Positions 24,322 through 36,662 of a stretch of 64,000 nt of DNA are shown piece by piece. This DNA comes from Cystobacter fuscus (GTDB lineage Bacteria; Myxococcota; Myxococcia; Myxococcales; Myxococcaceae). Each line of letters begins with the position of its first letter. The first letter of the stretch is position 1. Under the pieces are notes generated by a model. That model saw nothing but the letters and a program-made list of their open reading frames with translations, made no database searches and was not told the origin of the DNA. A program made the translations under genes and the position numbers. The stretch covers positions 9,362,001-9,426,000 of the forward strand of contig NZ_CP022098.1 in the NCBI RefSeq assembly GCF_002305875.1, read 5' to 3'.

Positions 24322-24963
24322 CTAGTGTGTGGCCTCCACGACGAAGTGCTCGCGCACCTGGCGCGCGTCCGAGGCATGCGAGACGCGGAACTCGTACCGG
24401 CCCGGCTTGTCGATGCGCACGCGCAGCGGCGTGGCGTCCGCGCCGGTGTCCGCGGTGAACTGGTGGATGCAGCGCCCCGCGTCACACCCCACCAGCCGCA
24501 CCGAGGGAAGTCCATCCGCATGCAGGTGGAGGTTCAGTTCCTCTGGAGCCTCCAGGTGGACGGTGGCCGGCTCACCCGAATGCACCCCATGCGTCCAGGG
24601 CAGCTCCAGCCACCCGGGGCTCCCGTGGGACAACTGAAAGGAGACATGGCGCAGCGGCATGATCTCGCTGAGGACCTCCGAGTCCCCGCTCCAGTCGTCC
24701 GCCCGCACCGCCAGCAGGATGACCGAGGTGACCAGGGCCAGGCCCATCACCTTGCGGGTGACGCGGTGCTCCAACCAGGCCAGGCGCGCCTGGCGCTCCG
24801 GGGGCTTGGGCCTCGCCGGCGTCTTCCCCGACGCGGCCGCCTGGAGCGCCAGCTGGATGCGGTTCTCGAGATGCGTGGACGGCCGTTCGTCTCGAAACGC
24901 ATCCAGGGCCTGGACGGCCTCTCCCGGCAAGGGGGGCAAGGACTTGTCATTGGGAGCGCTCAT
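24322..24963 (-). CDS. Putative anti-sigma factor (single-pass membrane protein)
   Basis: Protein of 213 residues. The first 75 are cytoplasmic and charged (LENRIQLALQAAASG), one membrane helix is VMGLALVTSVILLAV (about 73-88), and the rest is a periplasmic beta-rich domain with one Cys pair (GCDAGRC). It overlaps the ECF sigma gene by ATGA, the standard sigma/anti-sigma order. No zinc-binding ZAS motif (HxxxCxxC) is present, so the identification rests on gene order and topology. Confidence 0.65.
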   Translation of the reverse strand: MSAPNDKSLPPLPGEAVQALDAFRDERPSTHLENRIQLALQAAASGKTPARPKPPERQARLAWLEHRVTRKVMGLALVTSVILLAVRADDWSGDSEVLSEIMPLRHVSFQLSHGSPGWLELPWTHGVHSGEPATVHLEAPEELNLHLHADGLPSVRLVGCDAGRCIHQFTADTGADATPLRVRIDKPGRYEFRVSHASDARQVREHFVVEATH

Positions 24964-25559
24964 GAACGACCTCCTGCGTTGACGGCGGCCGGGGTCTGGG
25001 CGAGCTGCGCCTTGAAGGCGGCACCCAGCTGGGCACGTCCCCGGAAATGACGGCTCTTCACGGTCCCCACCGGAATCCCGAGCACCGCGGACACCTCTTC
25101 GTACCCAAGCTCTTCCACGTCACAGAGCAACACCACCAGACGGAACTTCTCGGGCAGGGCATGCAGGCAGCGCAACATCAGCTCGGCCTCCTCACTGCCG
25201 CACAGCCGGGCCTCGGGATCCTTCTGCTCCACCCCACCGGTGAAGAGCGAGCCCAGCACCGACGACGCCCCCTCGAGCACCGAGTCCAACAACGACCGGC
25301 GCCGGGCGAGCGCGCGCCGCGTTTCGACGAACTGGTTGCGAACGATTCCACACAGCCAGCCAAACAAGGACCCCCTCTCCTGGTAACTCTCCCGATGGAC
25401 GTAGGCCCGCACCAGGGCGTCTTGCAGCAAGTCCTCCGCCTCCTGCTTGTTCCGGCACAGCGTCAGGCAGAGCCGGTGAAGACGCGGCAGCAACGGCTGG
25501 ATCTCCGCCTCGAAACGCTCCCGCCCCCACCCCCCCGCGCCCTCCACCCCGCCGCTCAT
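24960..25559 (-). CDS. ECF (group IV) RNA polymerase sigma factor
   Basis: Sigma-70-family factor of 199 residues. Region 2 is seen in LCRNKQEAEDLLQDALVRAY and GSLFGWLCGIVRNQFVETRR, region 4 in LPEKFRLVVLLCDVEELGYEEVSAVLGIPVGTVKSRHFRGR. A loop of about 40 residues with VEGASSVLGSLFTGG separates them. The ATG at 25559 is chosen because it starts close to the family N-terminus; an in-frame start at 25625 is also possible. It is transcribed away from the SulP-Dab operon, with a matching 29-bp promoter-like element in front of each. Confidence 0.88.
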   Translation of the reverse strand: MSGGVEGAGGWGRERFEAEIQPLLPRLHRLCLTLCRNKQEAEDLLQDALVRAYVHRESYQERGSLFGWLCGIVRNQFVETRRALARRRSLLDSVLEGASSVLGSLFTGGVEQKDPEARLCGSEEAELMLRCLHALPEKFRLVVLLCDVEELGYEEVSAVLGIPVGTVKSRHFRGRAQLGAAFKAQLAQTPAAVNAGGRS

Positions 25560-25644
25560 CGCCGCCCCGCCCAGGACGGACCCCACCCCACGCACCCTTC
25601 CGGGCGATGGTCTGCTGCATTCCACGTCACGACACTGTCCATAA

Positions 25645-25673
25645 GGATGGAACGACTCACACGCGGGTTCCCG
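25645..25673 (-). promoter_or_regulatory. 29-bp shared element, sigma-operon copy
   Basis: Read on the minus strand it begins CGGGAACCCG, then has GTGA, TCGTTCC and a final TCC, and points at the ECF sigma gene 86 bp away. It matches the plus-strand copy at 25786-25814 at 24 of 29 positions. GGAAC is the classic ECF -35 core; 17 bases later comes CATC. GGAAC and GTTCC also form an inverted repeat with a 13-base spacer, so it may be a promoter, an operator or both. Confidence 0.7.
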
Positions 25674-25785
25674 AACGACGTCAATCGGATTTCACTCTAT
25701 TTCTCTTCCCCAGGCATGGAACTTGCTTTGCTCACAAATATTTCACTCGCCAACGGAAAAAAACCACGAGGGAAGAATAAAACAC

Positions 25786-25814
25786 CGGGAACCCGGAAGT
25801 GAATCGTTCCGTCC
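25786..25814 (+). promoter_or_regulatory. 29-bp shared element, SulP-Dab operon copy
   Basis: Begins CGGGAACCCG, has GTGA, TCGTTCC and TCC at the same spacing as the copy at 25645-25673. GGAAC (25788-25792) is followed 17 bases later by CGTC (25810-25813), a good ECF-type -35/-10 pair. If so, transcription starts near 25820 and the SulP gene must start downstream, which supports the ATG at 25884. Confidence 0.72.
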
Positions 25815-25883
25815 CTGCCTCTCGTGAAGCACGCGCCGCGTCAAGAACGCCGCGAGCCCGTGCGCCTCAAGAGGATGGAACCC

Positions 25884-27530
25884 ATGCAGCCTCAGCCTTC
25901 CGGTACTCCCCCCCAGGCCGCGTCCGAGAGCGCGTCGACCTGGAAGAGTGACATCGTCTCCGGCTTTCTCGTGTTCCTCATCGCGCTGCCGCTGTGCCTG
26001 GGCATCGCGATGGCCAGTGGCTTCCCGCCGGTGGCGGGCATCCTGACGGCGGTGGTGGGAGGGGTGGTGTCCTCCTGGCTGGGCAGCGCGCGGCTCACCA
26101 TCAAGGGGCCCGCCGCGGGGCTCATCGTCATCGCGCTCGGCGCGGTGACGGAGCTGGGCGGGGGTGACGGAGTGCTGGGCTACCGCCGGGCACTGGCCAC
26201 CATCGTGGTGGCCGCGGCGGTGCAGATCGTCTTCGCGCTCTTGCGCGCTGGGACCCTGGGGGACTTCTTCCCCTCGTCGGTGGTGCACGGAATGCTCGCG
26301 GCCATCGGCATCATCATCTGCTCCAAGCAGATCCACGTCCTCCTGGGCGTGGCGCCCGAGGCCAAGGAGCCGCTGCACCTGCTGGCGGAGATTCCCCGGA
26401 GCGTGATGAAGCTCAACCCGGAGATCGCCTTCATCGGCGCGATGAGCCTCGTCATCCTCTTCGGTCACGCGGCGGTGGCCAAACGCGTGGCGGCGCTGCG
26501 GCGTGTCCCCGCGCCCCTGCTGGCGTTGCTGTTCGCGGTGCCCATGGGGCTCTACTTCGACCTGGACCACGAGCACACCTTCACCTTCTCGCACAGCCTC
26601 TTCACGGTGGGCCCCAAGTTCCTCGTGAACCTGCCGAGCAACCTCCTGTCGGCCATCACCCTGCCGGACTTCTCCGCCGTCTTCAGCGCGACCTCCATCA
26701 AGTACATCGTCATGTTCGCGCTGGTGGGCAGCATCGAGTCGCTGCTGACGGCCAAGGCCATGGACATGATGGATCCGGAGAAGCGCCGCTCGGATCTCGA
26801 CAAGGATCTGCTCGCCACGGGCGTGGGGAACTTCATCTCCGGCATGCTCGGTGGCCTGCCGATGATCTCCGAGGTGGTGCGCAGCTCGGCCAACATCGGC
26901 TACGGGGCCAGGAGCCGGCTGTCCAACTTCTTCCACGGCCTGTTCCTGCTGCTCTTCGTGGCGTTCGTGCCCATGCTCATCCACCGGATTCCGCTCGCCG
27001 CCCTGGCCGCCATGCTCATCTTCGCGGGCGTGCGGCTGGCGTCGCCCAAGGAGTTCGTGAACACGTTCCGCATCGGGCCCGAGCAGTTCGTCATCTTCAC
27101 CTTCACCATCGGCGTGACGCTCGCCACGGATCTGCTGGTGGGCGTGGCGGCGGGCATGGCCCTCAAGGTGGTGGTGCACCTCATCAACGGCGCGCCGTTC
27201 GCCGGCCTCTTCAAGCCGCAGATCGAGGAGCACACCGAGGCGGGCCAGGTGGTGCTGCGCGTGCGCCAGGCGGCCGTCTTCACCAACTTCCTCAAGCTCA
27301 AGAAGCAGCTCGCGCGCCACGCCCACGCGACCCACGTGGAGGTCGACCTGACGGAGGCCCGCCTGGTGGACCACACGGTGATGGAGCGGCTGCACGAGCT
27401 GGAGGGCGAGTTCTCCCGCCAGGGCCGCCACCTGCACGTGCGCGGGCTCGAGCAACACCGCAGCCTCTCCGCGCATCCTCACTCCGCGCGCAAGAAGTCG
27501 GCGAAGGCCCCCCTGCCCGTCCGCTCCTGA
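25884..27530 (+). CDS. SulP-family anion transporter (probable bicarbonate)
   Basis: Inner-membrane transporter of 548 residues. About 10-12 membrane segments begin with VSGFLVFLIALPLCLGIAMASGFPPVAGILTAV; the conserved SulP core continues in SARLTIKGPAAGLIVI and GNFISGMLGGLPMISEVVRSSANI. A short STAS-like tail (HVEVDLTEARLVDHTVMERL) closes the protein. SulP proteins move sulfate, dicarboxylates or bicarbonate; the DabA gene 33 bp downstream favours bicarbonate. The ATG at 25884 has GAGG nine bases upstream and lies after the promoter-like element; GTG at 25824 would sit almost on the transcription start. Confidence 0.85.
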   Translation: MQPQPSGTPPQAASESASTWKSDIVSGFLVFLIALPLCLGIAMASGFPPVAGILTAVVGGVVSSWLGSARLTIKGPAAGLIVIALGAVTELGGGDGVLGYRRALATIVVAAAVQIVFALLRAGTLGDFFPSSVVHGMLAAIGIIICSKQIHVLLGVAPEAKEPLHLLAEIPRSVMKLNPEIAFIGAMSLVILFGHAAVAKRVAALRRVPAPLLALLFAVPMGLYFDLDHEHTFTFSHSLFTVGPKFLVNLPSNLLSAITLPDFSAVFSATSIKYIVMFALVGSIESLLTAKAMDMMDPEKRRSDLDKDLLATGVGNFISGMLGGLPMISEVVRSSANIGYGARSRLSNFFHGLFLLLFVAFVPMLIHRIPLAALAAMLIFAGVRLASPKEFVNTFRIGPEQFVIFTFTIGVTLATDLLVGVAAGMALKVVVHLINGAPFAGLFKPQIEEHTEAGQVVLRVRQAAVFTNFLKLKKQLARHAHATHVEVDLTEARLVDHTVMERLHELEGEFSRQGRHLHVRGLEQHRSLSAHPHSARKKSAKAPLPVRS

Positions 27531-27563: not shown

Positions 27564-30500
27564 ATGAGCCACTCCCCCTCGACCGACCGCGGACAGCACC
27601 TGAGTGAGGTGCTGGAGCACGCGGGCCACCTGTTGCCGGCGCAGGGTCCCATCGGCGTGTTCGTGCACCACAACACGCTGCACGCCTTCCAGCACCTGCC
27701 CTTCCACGAGGCGCTGGCCGCCGCGAGCGCCACGTTCGAGACGGAGACCTACCTCCCCGAGTCTCGCTACCGCGAGCTGTACCGGCGCGGGCGCATCACC
27801 GACGTGGATCTCAAGGCGGTGCTCGCCGAGCGGGAGCAGGGAGAGCGACGGGAGGAGATGGTGCCGGCCCCGCTGTCACGCCTGGACCTGGAGCTGCTCG
27901 CCCTGCTCCACCCGCCTCCGGTGGAGACGGCCGCCTCGCTGCGCTGGCGGATGAGTGAGTTGGCGGCGACCTCCTCGCTCCGGCCGGACGTGTCGACGGC
28001 CGCGCGCGAGCGGCTCCTGCGGCGCTCCACCGAGGGCATCCGCGGGTGGCTGGACCGGGTGGGCCGGGACTGGACGATGACCGATCTGGCCATGGCCCTG
28101 CTCGAGCCCACGCTGAACACCGCCGTGCGCGCCGCCGCCGCCGAGCCGCGGCGGGCCCTGGCCCAGGAGATCGCCCTGCGCCGCCTGGGCATCCCCTCCG
28201 CCCGGACCGAGGCCTATGTCGCGCAGGTGCGCGCCCGGCTGCTCGGCGCGACGACGACCCTGTCCGTGGAGGGGTGGTTGGGCGCCGAGGTGGCGCTCGT
28301 CCAGGACGCCCTGGCCACGGCGTTCGGGGGCGATGGCTCCCTGGCCTCCCTCAAGGAGCACCTGGAGCGCCACCCCGAGCGCTTCGCGGTGAAGGCGCTC
28401 TGGGCCGCCTGCCGCACGCCCCTGCTCACCGCGCCGGACTCGCGAGAGAAGGCCGAGCCCGGTGGGGTGCGCAGCCACCGCGAGCTGCTGCGGCTGGCCA
28501 CCGGGGAGGACATCAACGAGCTGGTCAACCCCCACCTCATCCGCATCTGCTCGGCCTTCCTCGACGAGGGCCAGTCGCACTGGAGCCTGCCGGAGCGCGA
28601 GTCGGGGCTGTACGCCGCCTGGCGCGCGCTGAAGCTCACCGGCATGGGCGTGCTGCCCGAGTGGCTGGAGGACCTCGAGGTGGACTTGAGACGGGCCTCC
28701 GCCCAGGGCCTGTCCGCGCGGGACGTGGTGCTCGCCGCGCTCGACGAGCTGGGCGTGCCCGAGGCGCAGTGGGAGCCCTACATCACCCGCGTGCTGCTCG
28801 CGCTGCCGGGCTGGGCCGGGATGTTCCACCGCTTGGAGCACAACCCGGCCGATCGGCCCGCGGGCTCGCCTCCGGCACACCTCATCGACTTCCTCGCGGT
28901 GCGCCTCACCCTGGAGCGCCACGCGCTGCGCACCGTGGCCCGGCGCCGGCTGGACTACCAGGGGCCGCTCTCCGGGCTCCTGGCCCGCGCGAGCGACGCC
29001 GCCGCGCACCGGCCCGCGGCCCTGGAGCACCCACTCGAGGAGGGCAGTTGGCGGCTCTTCCAGCTCATGCAGGTGGCGGGGCTGTCGGCCCTGGAGGTGG
29101 CGGACTTCCCGCTCGTCCGGCGCCAGGCCCTGCTCGCGTGGCTGGAGGCCTTCGACGCGCAGGCGCGCCGCCGCGTGTGGCACGAGGCCTACGAGCACCA
29201 CTACCGCATGGACATCCTCCAGGCGCTCGCGCAGAACCGGCTCCGCCCCGAGCCGGAGCGCACGGTGGAGGATCCGCGCTTCCAGGTCGTCTTCTGCATG
29301 GATGACCGCGAGGAGTCCTTCCGCCGGCACTTCGAGGAGCAGAGCCCGCGGCACGACACGTTCGGCATCGCCGGCTTCTTCGGCGTGGCCATGGACTACC
29401 GCGGCCTGGACGACGCGGGCCTCGCCGCCCTGTGCCCCATCGTGGTCACCCCGGCGCACATCGTCGAGGAGCGGGCCCACCCGGATCACGGCCACCTGGC
29501 CGAGACCCGCGCCCGGCTGCGCGCCCTCGGGGCCCGTCTCGAGCACTGGCTGCACGGCGGCTCGCACGCGCTCGAGTTCAGCTGGCTGCTCACGCCCCTG
29601 CTGGGACTCGTCTCCGCGCTGATGCTGCCCCTGCAGATCTTCGCCCCGCGCCGGGTGAGCCTGATGCGCCGGGCACTCGCCCAGCGGCTGCTGCCCACGC
29701 CCCGCACGCAGCTCACCAGCCTGAGGGACGAGGCGGCCGAGCAGCTCCACCTCAAGCCCCTGGGCTTCACCGTCGCCGAGAAGGCGGCGCGCGTGGCCAA
29801 CTCGCTGGAGAACCTGGGGCTGGTGGACGGCTTCGCGCCGCTCGTGGTGGTGCTGGGCCATGGCGCCATCAGCGTCAACAACCCGCACCAGTCCGCCTAC
29901 GACTGCGGTGCCTGCGGCGGCCGTCACGGCGGCCCCAACGCGCGCCTCTTCTCGGAGATGGCCAACCGGCCCGAGGTGCGGGCGCTCTTGCGCGAGCGCG
30001 GCATCCACATCCCCGACACGACGTGGTTCATCGGCGGCCTGCACAACACCACCACCGATGAGATCGTGCTCTACGACACCGAGGCGGTGCCCGAGGCCCT
30101 GCGCGGCGAGTTCACCGCCCTGAAGGAGTCGCTGGACAGCGCGCGCACCCTGTCGGCGCACGAGCGCTGCCGGCGCTTCGAGTCCGCGCCCCTGAGCCTG
30201 TCTCCCGAGGCGGCCCTGCGGCACGTGGAGGAGCGCGCGGCGGACCTGAGCCAGGCGCGTCCCGAGCTGGGCCACGTCACCAACGCCACGTGCGTGGTGG
30301 GACGCCGCGCCCTCACCCGAGGCCTGTTCCTGGACCGGCGCGCCTTCCTCATCTCGTATGACCCCACGAGGGACTCCTCCGGCGCCATCGCCGAGCGCAT
30401 CCTCGCCGCGGCGGGCCCCGTGGGCGCGGGCATCAACCTGGAGTACTACTTCTCCTGCATCGACAATGACCGCTACGGGTCCGGCACCAAGCTGCCCCAC

Positions 30501-30873
30501 AACCTCACCAGCCTGCTCGGGGTGATGGACGGCGTGGAGAGCGACCTGCGCACGGGCCTGCCCCGGCAGATGATCGAGATCCACGAGCCGGTGCGGCTGC
30601 TCCTGGTCGTGGAGGCCAGCGTGGAGGTGCTCGGGGGCATCTACGAGCGCCAGCCCATCCTGCGCGAGCTCATTGGCAATGAATGGGTCCAGCTCGTGAG
30701 CGTGGACCCGGTCACCGGCGCGCAGATGCGCTTCACGCCCCGGGGCTTCCAACCCGTCACCCCGCCGCCGGCGCCCCTGCCGGTGGTGGCCTCCTCGCCG
30801 GAGTGGTATCGCGGTCAGCGCGATTTCCTGCCTCCGGCGCTGATCGACGCTTCCCAGAAGAAAGAGTCTGACC

Positions 30874-30887
<14 letters not shown>
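27564..30887 (+). CDS. dabA: DabA: inorganic carbon uptake subunit (DUF2309/UPF0753)
   Basis: Large soluble/peripheral protein of 1107 residues that, with a proton-conducting DabB, converts CO2 to trapped bicarbonate in the cytoplasm using ion flow. The zinc-site residues known from Halothiobacillus DabA are all present with identical spacing: Cys 578 and Asp 580 in FCMDDRE, His 766 in VLGHGA and Cys 781 in YDCGACGGRHGGPN. It is longer than many family members but has no obvious extra domain. The ATG lies 33 bp after the SulP stop, and the next gene starts inside its 3' end (14-bp overlap), so the operon is tightly coupled. Confidence 0.93.
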
Positions 30888-32279
<1,392 letters not shown>

Positions 32280-32280
<1 letters not shown>

Positions 32281-33830
32281 TGCGGACGTCCCTTCCCCTT
32301 CTCTCCCTCCTGGTGGTGTTGCCCGCGCTGGGCGCCGCGGCGCTGCGCCAGCTCCGCCAGCCCGAGCGTCAGCGCCGGGTGGCGCTCGGCGTGGCGACGC
32401 TCACCCTGCTCCTGACACTGGGCGCGGTGGTCCTCTTCGAGGGCGGCGTCCCCGGCGTGCAGCTGCATGAGTCGTGGTTCCGCGTGCCGGGGCTCGGCGT
32501 GGAGCTGCGGCTGGGCGTGGATGGCATGAGCGTGCTGGCGCTGGTGGTCACCGCGCTGCTCACCCTGGGGCTGGTGGCGGCCGGTCCGCGCCAGTCGCTC
32601 GACCGGGGCACGCTCGGCGCGCTGCTGCTCACCGAGAGCATGACCCTGGGCTTCTTCTGCGCCGAGGACCTGGCGCTGATGACCGTCTTCTTCATCGCCA
32701 CCCTGGTGCCGACCGGCGCGCTGCTGGCGCGTCAGGCGCGGGCACGGCCCGAGGCCCGGGCGCTGCGCACCTTCGGCGTCTACATGCTCATGAGCGCGCT
32801 GCCCCTCGTGGTGGCCACGGCCCTGGTGGGCCTCGAGGGCTGGCGCACTGGAGCACCGGCGCCCTTCGGCCTGACGGAGCTGATCGCCCGGGGGCTGCCG
32901 GCGACGTGGCACCTGCCCGTGTTCGCGTTGTTGATGCTGGCGGTGTGCGTGCGCATGGCGGTGGTGCCCTTCCACTCCTGGCTGCCCGTGCTCATGGCGC
33001 GCGGCCCGTTCGGCGTGGGCTTGCTGCTGGTGAACGCGCACGCGGGGCTGTACCTGCTGGTGCGCGTGGTGATGCCGCTGCTGCCCGGGGAGTGGAACCG
33101 GGGCGGCGTGATGCTCGGAACGCTGGGCCTGTGCGCCGCCCTGTATGGCGCGGTGCTGGCGCTGGCGCAGACGGATCTGCGCCGCGTGGTGGGCTTCCTC
33201 CTGGCGAGCCAGTCGGGCCTGATGCTGGCGGGGCTCGCCATCGGCAACACGCAGAGCATCTCCGGCGCGCTCATCCAGAGCGTGGCCGCGGGCATCGCGC
33301 TCACGGGGTTGGATCTCGTCGTGCGCGCCATCGAGGCCCGCACGGGCACCACGGACATGACGCGGCTGGGAGGACTCGTGCGCCGCGGCCCGCGTCTGGC
33401 GGCCTTCTTCTTCCTCATGGGCTTTGGCAGCCTCGGCTTCCCGGGCACACTGAGCTTCGTGGGCGAGGATCTGCTGCTGCACGGCATCCTGGACACCCAC
33501 CCACTGGTGGCGCTGCCCCTGCTGCTGACCACCGCCATCAACGGCGTCACCTTCCTGCGCGCCTTCCAGCGCACCTTCCTCGGCTCGCCCGCCCATGGCC
33601 AGGCGGCCCTGCTGGAGACGGTGGAGGACTTGTTGCCCCGGGAGCGGGGGATGGTGTTCGCCCTGTTCGCCCTGGTGGTGCTCGGCGGATTGGTGCCGGG
33701 ACCGCTGCTGCACCTGCGCGCCTCGCAGGTGGAATCCCTGGCGGGCCCCGAGTCCTCCTCCAGTCACCACGAGGAGTCCGTGTCACGGGGTGAGCTCCCT
33801 TCCGAGGCGCTTTCCCTGGCATGTCCTTGA
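32280..33830 (+). CDS. NuoM/NuoL-like proton-conducting membrane protein (DabB-like 2)
   Basis: Second complex I-type subunit of 516 residues, starting at an ATG that shares one base with the stop before it (TGATG). Features: LGVDGMSVLALVVTALLTLG, FFIATLVPTGALLA, VPFHSWLPVLMARGPFGVGLLLVNAHAGLYLLVRV and GFPGTLSFVGEDLLLHG. The VDGMS and FHSWLP blocks are typical of NuoM. Most described Dab loci have one such subunit, so two in series is notable. A 33-residue polar tail ends the protein. Confidence 0.83.
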
Positions 33831-35945: not shown

Positions 35946-36101
35946 GCGGGCTCCACTGCTCGCCGACTCGCGGCGCTGGGGAGGGACGCTTCACCGAGCG
36001 TCCGCTCGTGAATACTTTTTCCTTGGAATCGCGATGGCTGGTCCTGGTCGGGAAGGAGGTTTCCCCCGCGGCCACGCGCCTCACGAATGAAAGGCGAGAA
36101 C

Positions 36102-36662
36102 ATGCGGACGAACATCCTGGCGGTCGCGGTGGTGACGACCTCGTTGGGCATGGTGGGAATCGCCAATGCGCAGCAACAAGACACCACCCAGTCCCAGCAA
36201 CCCATGGCTGGCAGCCATGCGCTCCAGCAACCCCTGACGGGCAGCTACACCTTCCAGCAACCGATGGCCGGCAGCTATGCGCTCCAGCAGCCCCTGACCG
36301 GTAGCTATGGCCTCCAGCAGCCCTTGACGGGCAGCTACACCCTCCAGCAACCCCTGACGGGCAGCTACACCCTCCAGCAGCCCCTGCTGGGCAGCACCCT
36401 GGGACAACAGTCTTCCTCCGGAAGCTTCAGCTCTCAGCTCCCCATGACTGGCTCCTCGAACTTCCAGACCACGCTGCCGGGTGACTCCAGCTCGCTGTCG
36501 AGCGGCTCCTTGTCGGGTAGCTCGCTGTCGAGCGGCTCCTCGCTGGGCAGCCCGCTGTCGGGCAGCACCACGACCTCGCCTGGAAGCACCCCGGTGCAGC
36601 AACCCGGGCTCTCGACCCTGCCCTCCACGCAGCCCGGAAGCACGACGTCCGGCGTGCGCTGA
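36102..36662 (+). CDS. Secreted decapeptide-repeat protein
   Basis: Exported low-complexity protein of 186 residues. A signal peptide ends at IANA (about residue 23). Seven 10-residue repeats, mostly LQQPLTGSYT, follow, then a Ser/Gly/Leu-rich region and a Pro/Gln/Thr-rich tail. There is no Cys and almost no charge. AAGGCGAG just upstream supports the ATG at 36102 over one at 36087. It could be a surface or matrix-associated structural protein; no homologue is recognised. Confidence 0.7.
   Translation: MRTNILAVAVVTTSLGMVGIANAQQQDTTQSQQPMAGSHALQQPLTGSYTFQQPMAGSYALQQPLTGSYGLQQPLTGSYTLQQPLTGSYTLQQPLLGSTLGQQSSSGSFSSQLPMTGSSNFQTTLPGDSSSLSSGSLSGSSLSSGSSLGSPLSGSTTTSPGSTPVQQPGLSTLPSTQPGSTTSGVR
36195..36404 (+). 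repeat. Seven 30-bp tandem repeats encoding a decapeptide
   Basis: Units start with CAGCA(A/G)CC and encode QQPLTGSYTL or close variants (QQPMAGSYAL, QQPLTGSYGL). Units 5 and 6 are almost the same at DNA level. The last unit is degenerate. In-frame units of this length can change in number by slippage or recombination. Confidence 0.9.

Follow-up and report, generated by a model that had tools for sequence, protein, structure and literature searches.

In the genome of Cystobacter fuscus, the gene for an ECF sigma factor lies back to back with genes for a SulP-family transporter and a DAB-type pump, and the intervening DNA carries two copies of one 29-base element. Does the sigma factor act at both copies, and does it thus link the uptake of inorganic carbon to its own expression? 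We addressed this question in a stretch of 64,000 nucleotides of contig NZ_CP022098.1 (positions 9,362,001 to 9,426,000 of the forward strand), hereafter the window, and in related genomes. ECF factors typically have a membrane anti-sigma partner and an autoregulated promoter of the GGAAC/CGTC type. From the comparisons below we consider it highly probable that both elements are promoters of a dedicated ECF sigma/anti-sigma pair, which would control the uptake of inorganic carbon and, except in Myxococcus, also its own expression.

Gene content of the locus

The features of the locus are listed in Table 1. The sigma protein matches the region 2 and region-4 Pfam models only, with neither a region 3 nor a long region 1, which places it among the ECF factors, and it scores 71.3 bits against the sigma70-ECF superfamily model TIGR02937 (cut-off 42.9). 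A GTG at 25625 lies upstream in the same open frame, which leaves the exact start in doubt. The gene at 32280-33830 is probably the last of the SulP-Dab operon; its homologues reach 65-74% identity in L124, L128, L130 and L131 and 45% in L129, and the second-subunit homologues of other Dab operons (L123, L125, L127) 31-36%. A preliminary description of this DNA was silent on this second DabB-like gene, on the anti-sigma candidate and on the porin discussed below. Further along the window, an open reading frame at 36087-36662 has a secreted-looking start and repeated GSYxLQQPLTG-like units.

Table 1. Genes and predicted promoters of the locus, in window coordinates
Feature	Position	Strand	Details
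Candidate anti-sigma factor gene	24322..24963	-	213 aa; overlaps sigma gene 3' end; adjoins ECF gene in 20/22 loci
ECF sigma factor gene	24960..25559	-	199 aa from ATG 25559; Pfam Sigma70_r2, Sigma70_r4_2, Sigma70_r4
Predicted ECF promoter, sigma/anti-sigma operon	25646..25671	-	-35 GGAAC 25667-25671, spacer 17, -10 CATC 25646-25649; element before 11/22 orthologous ECF genes
Predicted ECF promoter, SulP-DabA-DabB operon	25788..25813	+	-35 GGAAC 25788-25792, spacer 17, -10 CGTC 25810-25813; element before 22/22 orthologous SulP genes
SulP-family transporter gene	25884..27530	+	548 aa; probable start ATG 25884
DabA gene, long type	27564..30887	+	1107 aa; active-site motifs CxDxR and H-x14-C
DabB-like membrane subunit gene	30874..32280	+	468 aa
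Second antiporter-like membrane subunit gene	32280..33830	+	516 aa; Pfam Proton_antipo_M; overlaps preceding stop

By its layout, the 213-residue protein encoded beside the sigma factor is probably a membrane anti-sigma factor. Its model (mean pLDDT 71, with block values of 67-92 beyond residue 100) has N-terminal helices, one helix of membrane length (66-90) and an Ig-like beta-sandwich as C-terminal domain. The protein gave no sequence match in Pfam, NCBIfam or the PDB, and a Foldseek search with the outer domain returned no match at E <= 0.001. A second structure comparison of this domain gave Z scores up to 7.3 among the entries listed, three of the first four being the copper-binding YcnI (7.1-7.3). 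Many Ig-like domains score just below these entries and such a Z level is typical of a common arrangement, so the YcnI likeness is a lead at most. Four residues of the outer domain, H128, C160, C165 and H167, are invariant in an alignment of 19 rows; they might make a disulfide bond or serve as a binding site for a metal or another ligand.

The shared element and its counterparts in related genomes

The two copies, at 25645-25673 (minus strand) and 25786-25814 (plus strand), are identical at 24 of 29 positions, exactly as the preliminary description had reported. To judge this figure, the 324-bp stretch separating both coding starts (25560-25883) was subjected to 500 dinucleotide shuffles: the best inverted non-overlapping pair of 29-mers reached 21 identities (mean 17.1), and 24 or more were obtained in 0/500. 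The core common to both copies is CGGGAACCCG-NNN-GTGA-N-TCGTTCC-R-TCC. Each copy contains a GGAAC followed after exactly 17 bases by CATC (minus) or CGTC (plus) and reads towards its own operon, an arrangement that had also been pointed out before and that we find in both copies. Just downstream of the predicted ECF-side promoter, an ATG at 25620 (minus strand) opens a frame other than that of the sigma gene, as noted by eye; a matching out-of-frame ATG occurs in L009-L014, with peptides such as MKRRGARG..., MQRRED... and MQQTIARKG..., and it is possibly a leader ORF.

A search of the whole genome, which had been proposed as a check, located GGAACCCGNNNGTGANTCGTTCCRTC with up to three mismatches at two sites in 12,349,744 bases, both of them here, and at none in the control; a more diverged third copy, before a porin gene, lies outside this limit. 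The bare pattern behaves differently: GGAAC-N17-CRTC occurs seven times in the window against 1.1 expected, and GGAAC-N17-CRTCY is common in the genome, with 172 matches versus 211 for the reversed control. The bare pattern, being no commoner than its reversed control, was therefore rejected as a means of finding a regulon. This commonness would also suit the idea that the two copies resemble each other by chance or through a recent functionless duplication. Against it stand the shuffle result and the retention of the element across five genera despite diverged flanks, and we give this idea next to no weight.

Orthologues of the sigma factor number 22 in 96 family genomes at an identity of at least 67%, the next matches being at most 40% identical. 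When 147 genomes of the class were searched with a profile, these 22 were again retrieved at E <= 1e-45. Named genomes, scanned for names and identities only, gave 19 sigma loci, eight of them close (68-79%; three in Archangium, one in Hyalangium and four in Myxococcus) and the remaining 11 distant (24-31%). The genus labels used here are g1 for the genus of the window, g3 for Archangium, g7 for Hyalangium, g19 for Myxococcus and g20 for an Archangium MAG, and G000 is the genome of the window itself. The 22 loci represent one family and five genera, and their sites are not independent. Alignments comprised 21 of the 22 loci (A1) and 19 of the 20 anti-sigma loci (A2), L019 being omitted as near-identical to L018.

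A divergent SulP gene adjoins the ECF gene at all 22 loci. As for the anti-sigma candidate, the locus of G080 is cut by a contig end, and no match was found within the 13 kb examined around the locus of G007. DabA is present in all 22 genomes and, by position, lies behind SulP in 21 of them, an arrangement checked by tblastn in four of the 21. The exception is G007, in which a short-type DabA and a DabB are convergent to SulP. This genome provides a natural variant (L123, 2272-9761): the ECF and SulP genes have been kept, but there is no anti-sigma gene, no long DabA and no element on the ECF side.

The pattern GGAAC-N17-CRTC faces SulP at 22/22 loci, with the 17-base spacing and the orientation fixed. 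It faces the ECF gene at 11/22, namely at 11 of the 12 loci outside Myxococcus, where G007 is the one without it, and at none of the ten Myxococcus loci. The earlier proposal that the ECF factor may switch on its own gene would thus fit most loci outside Myxococcus, including the window, and is not general. With a weighted consensus, whose weights were chosen after the sites had been seen, the score of each of the 33 locus sites was equalled in 0/300 shuffles of its own region, whereas the 11 ECF sides that lack the element were equalled by 8 to 129 of their 300 shuffles.

Column information peaks at GGAACC and at TCRTTCCRTC and is lower in the mid-spacer and the flanks; an A-rich stretch just upstream was noted by eye. 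The constancy of GGAAC and CRTC is partly by construction, both having defined the search. Outside the search pattern, over 37 sites (33 at the locus and four before porins), T16 and T19 are found at 37/37, C17 at 36/37 and C21 at 35/37. A TCRTTCC block is conserved inside the spacer; it is beyond what a plain ECF promoter explains, and it deserves an explanation.

One such explanation is that the element is the operator of a separate regulator, which would read a GGAAC-N13-GTTCC dyad and co-control both operons, the ECF gene being a mere neighbour. The preliminary description had noticed this dyad. It is indeed present in both window copies, and the conservation of TCRTTCC beyond the needs of a plain ECF promoter is what an operator might require. 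However, the second half of the dyad departs from GTTCC at 11 of the 37 sites, and conservation extends past the dyad on one side, to an RTC, so that the element as a whole lacks symmetry. Moreover, all 33 locus sites point at the gene, albeit in a set selected by that pattern, and the element tracks the ECF gene, with regulator genes surveyed among the immediate neighbours. We consider a separate regulator quite improbable.

How closely the element follows the ECF gene was judged from searches of different stringency. A degenerate consensus matched exactly at the ECF locus in 19/20 ECF genomes, a figure that is not independent because the consensus was derived from these loci, and anywhere in 2/72 genomes without the ECF gene; this search covered 92 of the 96 family genomes, omitting G053, G055, G061 and G068, two of which (G055 and G061) have the ECF gene. 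With one mismatch allowed, 62/92 genomes matched, versus 37 for the reversed control (hand count). The window letters at up to three mismatches matched in 35 of 145 order genomes and in one genome for the control; by hand count, 15 of the 35 match at the ECF locus, 19 have no ECF gene, and G006 matches elsewhere. Loose matches in genomes without the ECF gene count against the promoter reading; since such searches also match in controls, only exact matches and position were used. The strict consensus misses real-looking sites, for instance on the SulP side of G007, G034 and G003, and it has exact matches without a known link in G033 (C5:572296), G050 and G059.

A single genome, G042, serves as control with a related operon and no ECF gene: its SulP, DabA and DabB are 72-76% identical to those of the window, an ECF orthologue is absent (best match 35%), and the 800 bp before SulP contain no GGAAC-N17-CRTC. 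In G046 and G004, whose Dab operons are less closely related and which also lack an ECF orthologue, the 650 bp examined held no site with fewer than six mismatches.

A porin site and the nature of the cargo

The exact consensus search also located the element at C1:3746962-3746988 of the genome, outside the window and 117 bp before a gene with a Porin_O_P domain (79.2 bits, cut-off 20.9), whose product weakly resembles in sequence two porins of solved structure, Porin P and Porin O (E about 1e-6). A homologue of this porin is preceded by an exact site in G032 and G034 and by a site with one mismatch in G033. The porin-side element is thus found in 4/4 genomes of genus g1, in a form more diverged than the window copies; given the close relationship among G000, G032 and G033, these sites amount to fewer than four independent cases. 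None of the porin-side copies played a part in defining the element. In G034 the porin has a different neighbour gene, different flanks and a different distance (71 bp), yet the element is there, indicating that the site is kept where its surroundings changed. The porin of G032 (L145) is a remnant, its match starting at residue 237-246 with one stop inside and the first half missing, and the element before it is intact.

In the eight ECF genomes of g3, g7 and g20, no such porin was found at E <= 1e-40. A homologue with 49-54% identity is present in each of the ten ECF genomes of Myxococcus, and the 700 bp preceding it contain no element, save one unlike match 695 bp away in L140. At these Myxococcus porin loci (L135-L144), a short leader peptide containing several cysteines in a row (e.g. 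MTLRTSIACCCCCARAVGTCPPVA) is encoded in 10/10 cases, at a distance of 265-355 bp ahead of the point where the porin alignment starts. It is followed by a terminator-like inverted repeat that is formed in the minimum-energy fold in 9/10, a count made without a shuffle control. Leader and hairpin together may form an attenuator that responds to cysteine, ahead of a gene for an anion porin.

Other sites may point to further targets. GGGAACTCAACGAACTCTCGTTCCGTC, a form of the element with one mismatch at C1:11454565-11454591 of the genome, lies before a MarR-like gene and near a methyltransferase-like one, and it recurs unchanged in G032 and G033. In G034 a TetR-like gene is preceded by an exact site (C1:7517303). 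The MarR-like and TetR-like labels are readings of translations, and the two genes are possible additional members of the target set on the basis of these sites.

Which substrate would such a regulon serve? The window DabA belongs to the DabA family (850 bits), and its CxDxR and H/C motifs correspond in alignment to Cys351, Asp353, Arg355, His524 and Cys539, given as active-site residues of DabA2 in PMC13144422. With these zinc-site motifs and DabB-like membrane subunits both present, the locus has the gene content of a DAB pump. The active-site motifs are found in 21/21 ECF-linked long DabA copies, which makes inorganic carbon the likeliest theme; in the short DabA of G007 (L123) CxDxR is present and the pattern of the second motif is not matched. 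The window SulP matches solved SulP chains; against the NCBIfam BicA equivalog it reaches 127.7 bits, where the cut-off is 880, which makes any substrate of SulP a putative one. We infer bicarbonate as the probable ion.

True ECF promoters could also govern a regulon for sulfate or a different oxyanion, with inorganic carbon not being its cargo. SulP is the sulfate-permease family and the g1 porin is of the phosphate-selective O/P family, and the cysteine-rich leader of all ten Myxococcus porin loci suggests control by cysteine supply there; porin family and leader together make sulfate or another oxyanion conceivable as cargo of SulP and porin. In addition, of two Thiomicrospira SulP proteins one failed to rescue a carbonic-anhydrase-negative E. 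coli, but the other did rescue it, according to PMC12628692. The oxyanion reading is further weakened by the Myxococcus porin loci, which are without the element, and by DabA, which is in the operon at 21/22 ECF loci and shares its zinc-site motifs with DAB2, an enzyme that hydrates CO2 (PMC13144422). We regard an oxyanion regulon as unlikely, though less so than a separate regulator, and retain inorganic carbon as the preferred theme. Genes for beta-carbonic anhydrase were found in 90/92 genomes, including 20/20 ECF genomes searched. The pump is thus not the sole source of bicarbonate, and the notion that DAB stands in for a lost carbonic anhydrase was rejected.

Proposed circuit and comparison with known systems

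The preliminary reading of the two copies as promoters of the adjacent ECF factor agrees with the fixed spacing and orientation before SulP at 22/22 loci, with the absence of the element in the single genome G042 and with the porin copies. The sequences show which genes are present and that the elements are conserved; from this we infer how the promoters, the anti-sigma factor and its signal may work together. The sigma gene and the gene of its probable membrane anti-sigma factor would form one operon, and the divergent operon would comprise SulP, DabA and two DabB-like subunits. In the resting state, the sigma factor would be held by the anti-sigma factor, from which a periplasmic signal, most plausibly tied to the supply of inorganic carbon or to the ionic or pH state, would release it. 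The freed sigma factor would start transcription with RNA polymerase at GGAACC-N10-TCRTTCCRTC before both operons, raising its own level in a positive feedback, and the output would be a SulP anion transporter together with a CO2-hydrating pump of the DAB type. In genus g1 an anion porin of the outer membrane would be made from a third promoter, giving small anions a way across this membrane as well. In the most economical scheme, a single sigma factor would act at three promoters in g1, at two in Archangium and Hyalangium and at one in Myxococcus.

More tentatively, and with odds we would put rather against it than for it, a novel His/Cys domain of the anti-sigma factor may sense inorganic carbon, or else something that closely reflects it, for instance bicarbonate in the periplasm, pH or a metal. 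The system would then serve a two-membrane route from porin to SulP to DAB that has been rewired between genera, from the operon only in Myxococcus, through addition of the sigma gene in Archangium and Hyalangium, to that of the porin in g1. If the proposed circuit is true, a defined promoter, a sigma factor, an anti-sigma sensor and few targets would make the sensing of and response to low inorganic carbon in myxobacteria directly testable. The genera would moreover offer natural variants of the feedback loop, with the self-promoter, without it, or without the anti-sigma factor (G007).

Myxobacteria are typically heterotrophic predators. DAB-type pumps occur in heterotrophs too, as stated in PMC13144422. 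An Arcobacter ECF factor is reported to raise genes that include a carbonic anhydrase (PMC3445524), so a link between ECF factors and CO2 chemistry is not wholly new. Among the literature matches listed, mostly titles and abstract openings, none tied a DAB pump to an ECF sigma factor. ECF/anti-sigma pairs with self-promoters and DAB pumps are each known; as far as these matches extend, their joining as regulator and target set was not found in print. In Synechocystis, SigC under changed inorganic carbon likewise ties a sigma factor to the level of inorganic carbon (PMC12329169); the opening of its abstract describes no ECF factor paired with a DAB operon.

Compared with a typical ECF/anti-sigma system, the protein pair described here is alike in a sigma factor with regions 2 and 4 only and an adjacent one-helix anti-sigma candidate. 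The predicted promoter resembles the typical one in its GGAAC -35, its CRTC -10, the 17-base spacing and, outside Myxococcus, a copy before the sigma gene itself. It differs in the TCRTTCC block of the spacer, and the system differs in an anti-sigma candidate without family match, in target genes that are probably for inorganic carbon and in that no self-promoter was found in Myxococcus. With BicA-like bicarbonate transporters, the SulP protein has the family in common, and it scores far under the BicA cut-off. Finally, the pump shares with the known DAB/DAC pumps (DabA-DabB; MpsAB in Staphylococcus) the DabA family and its CxDxR and H/C motifs, whereas its DabA is long (1107 aa), a SulP gene comes first, two DabB-like subunits follow, and an ECF/anti-sigma pair is linked to it.
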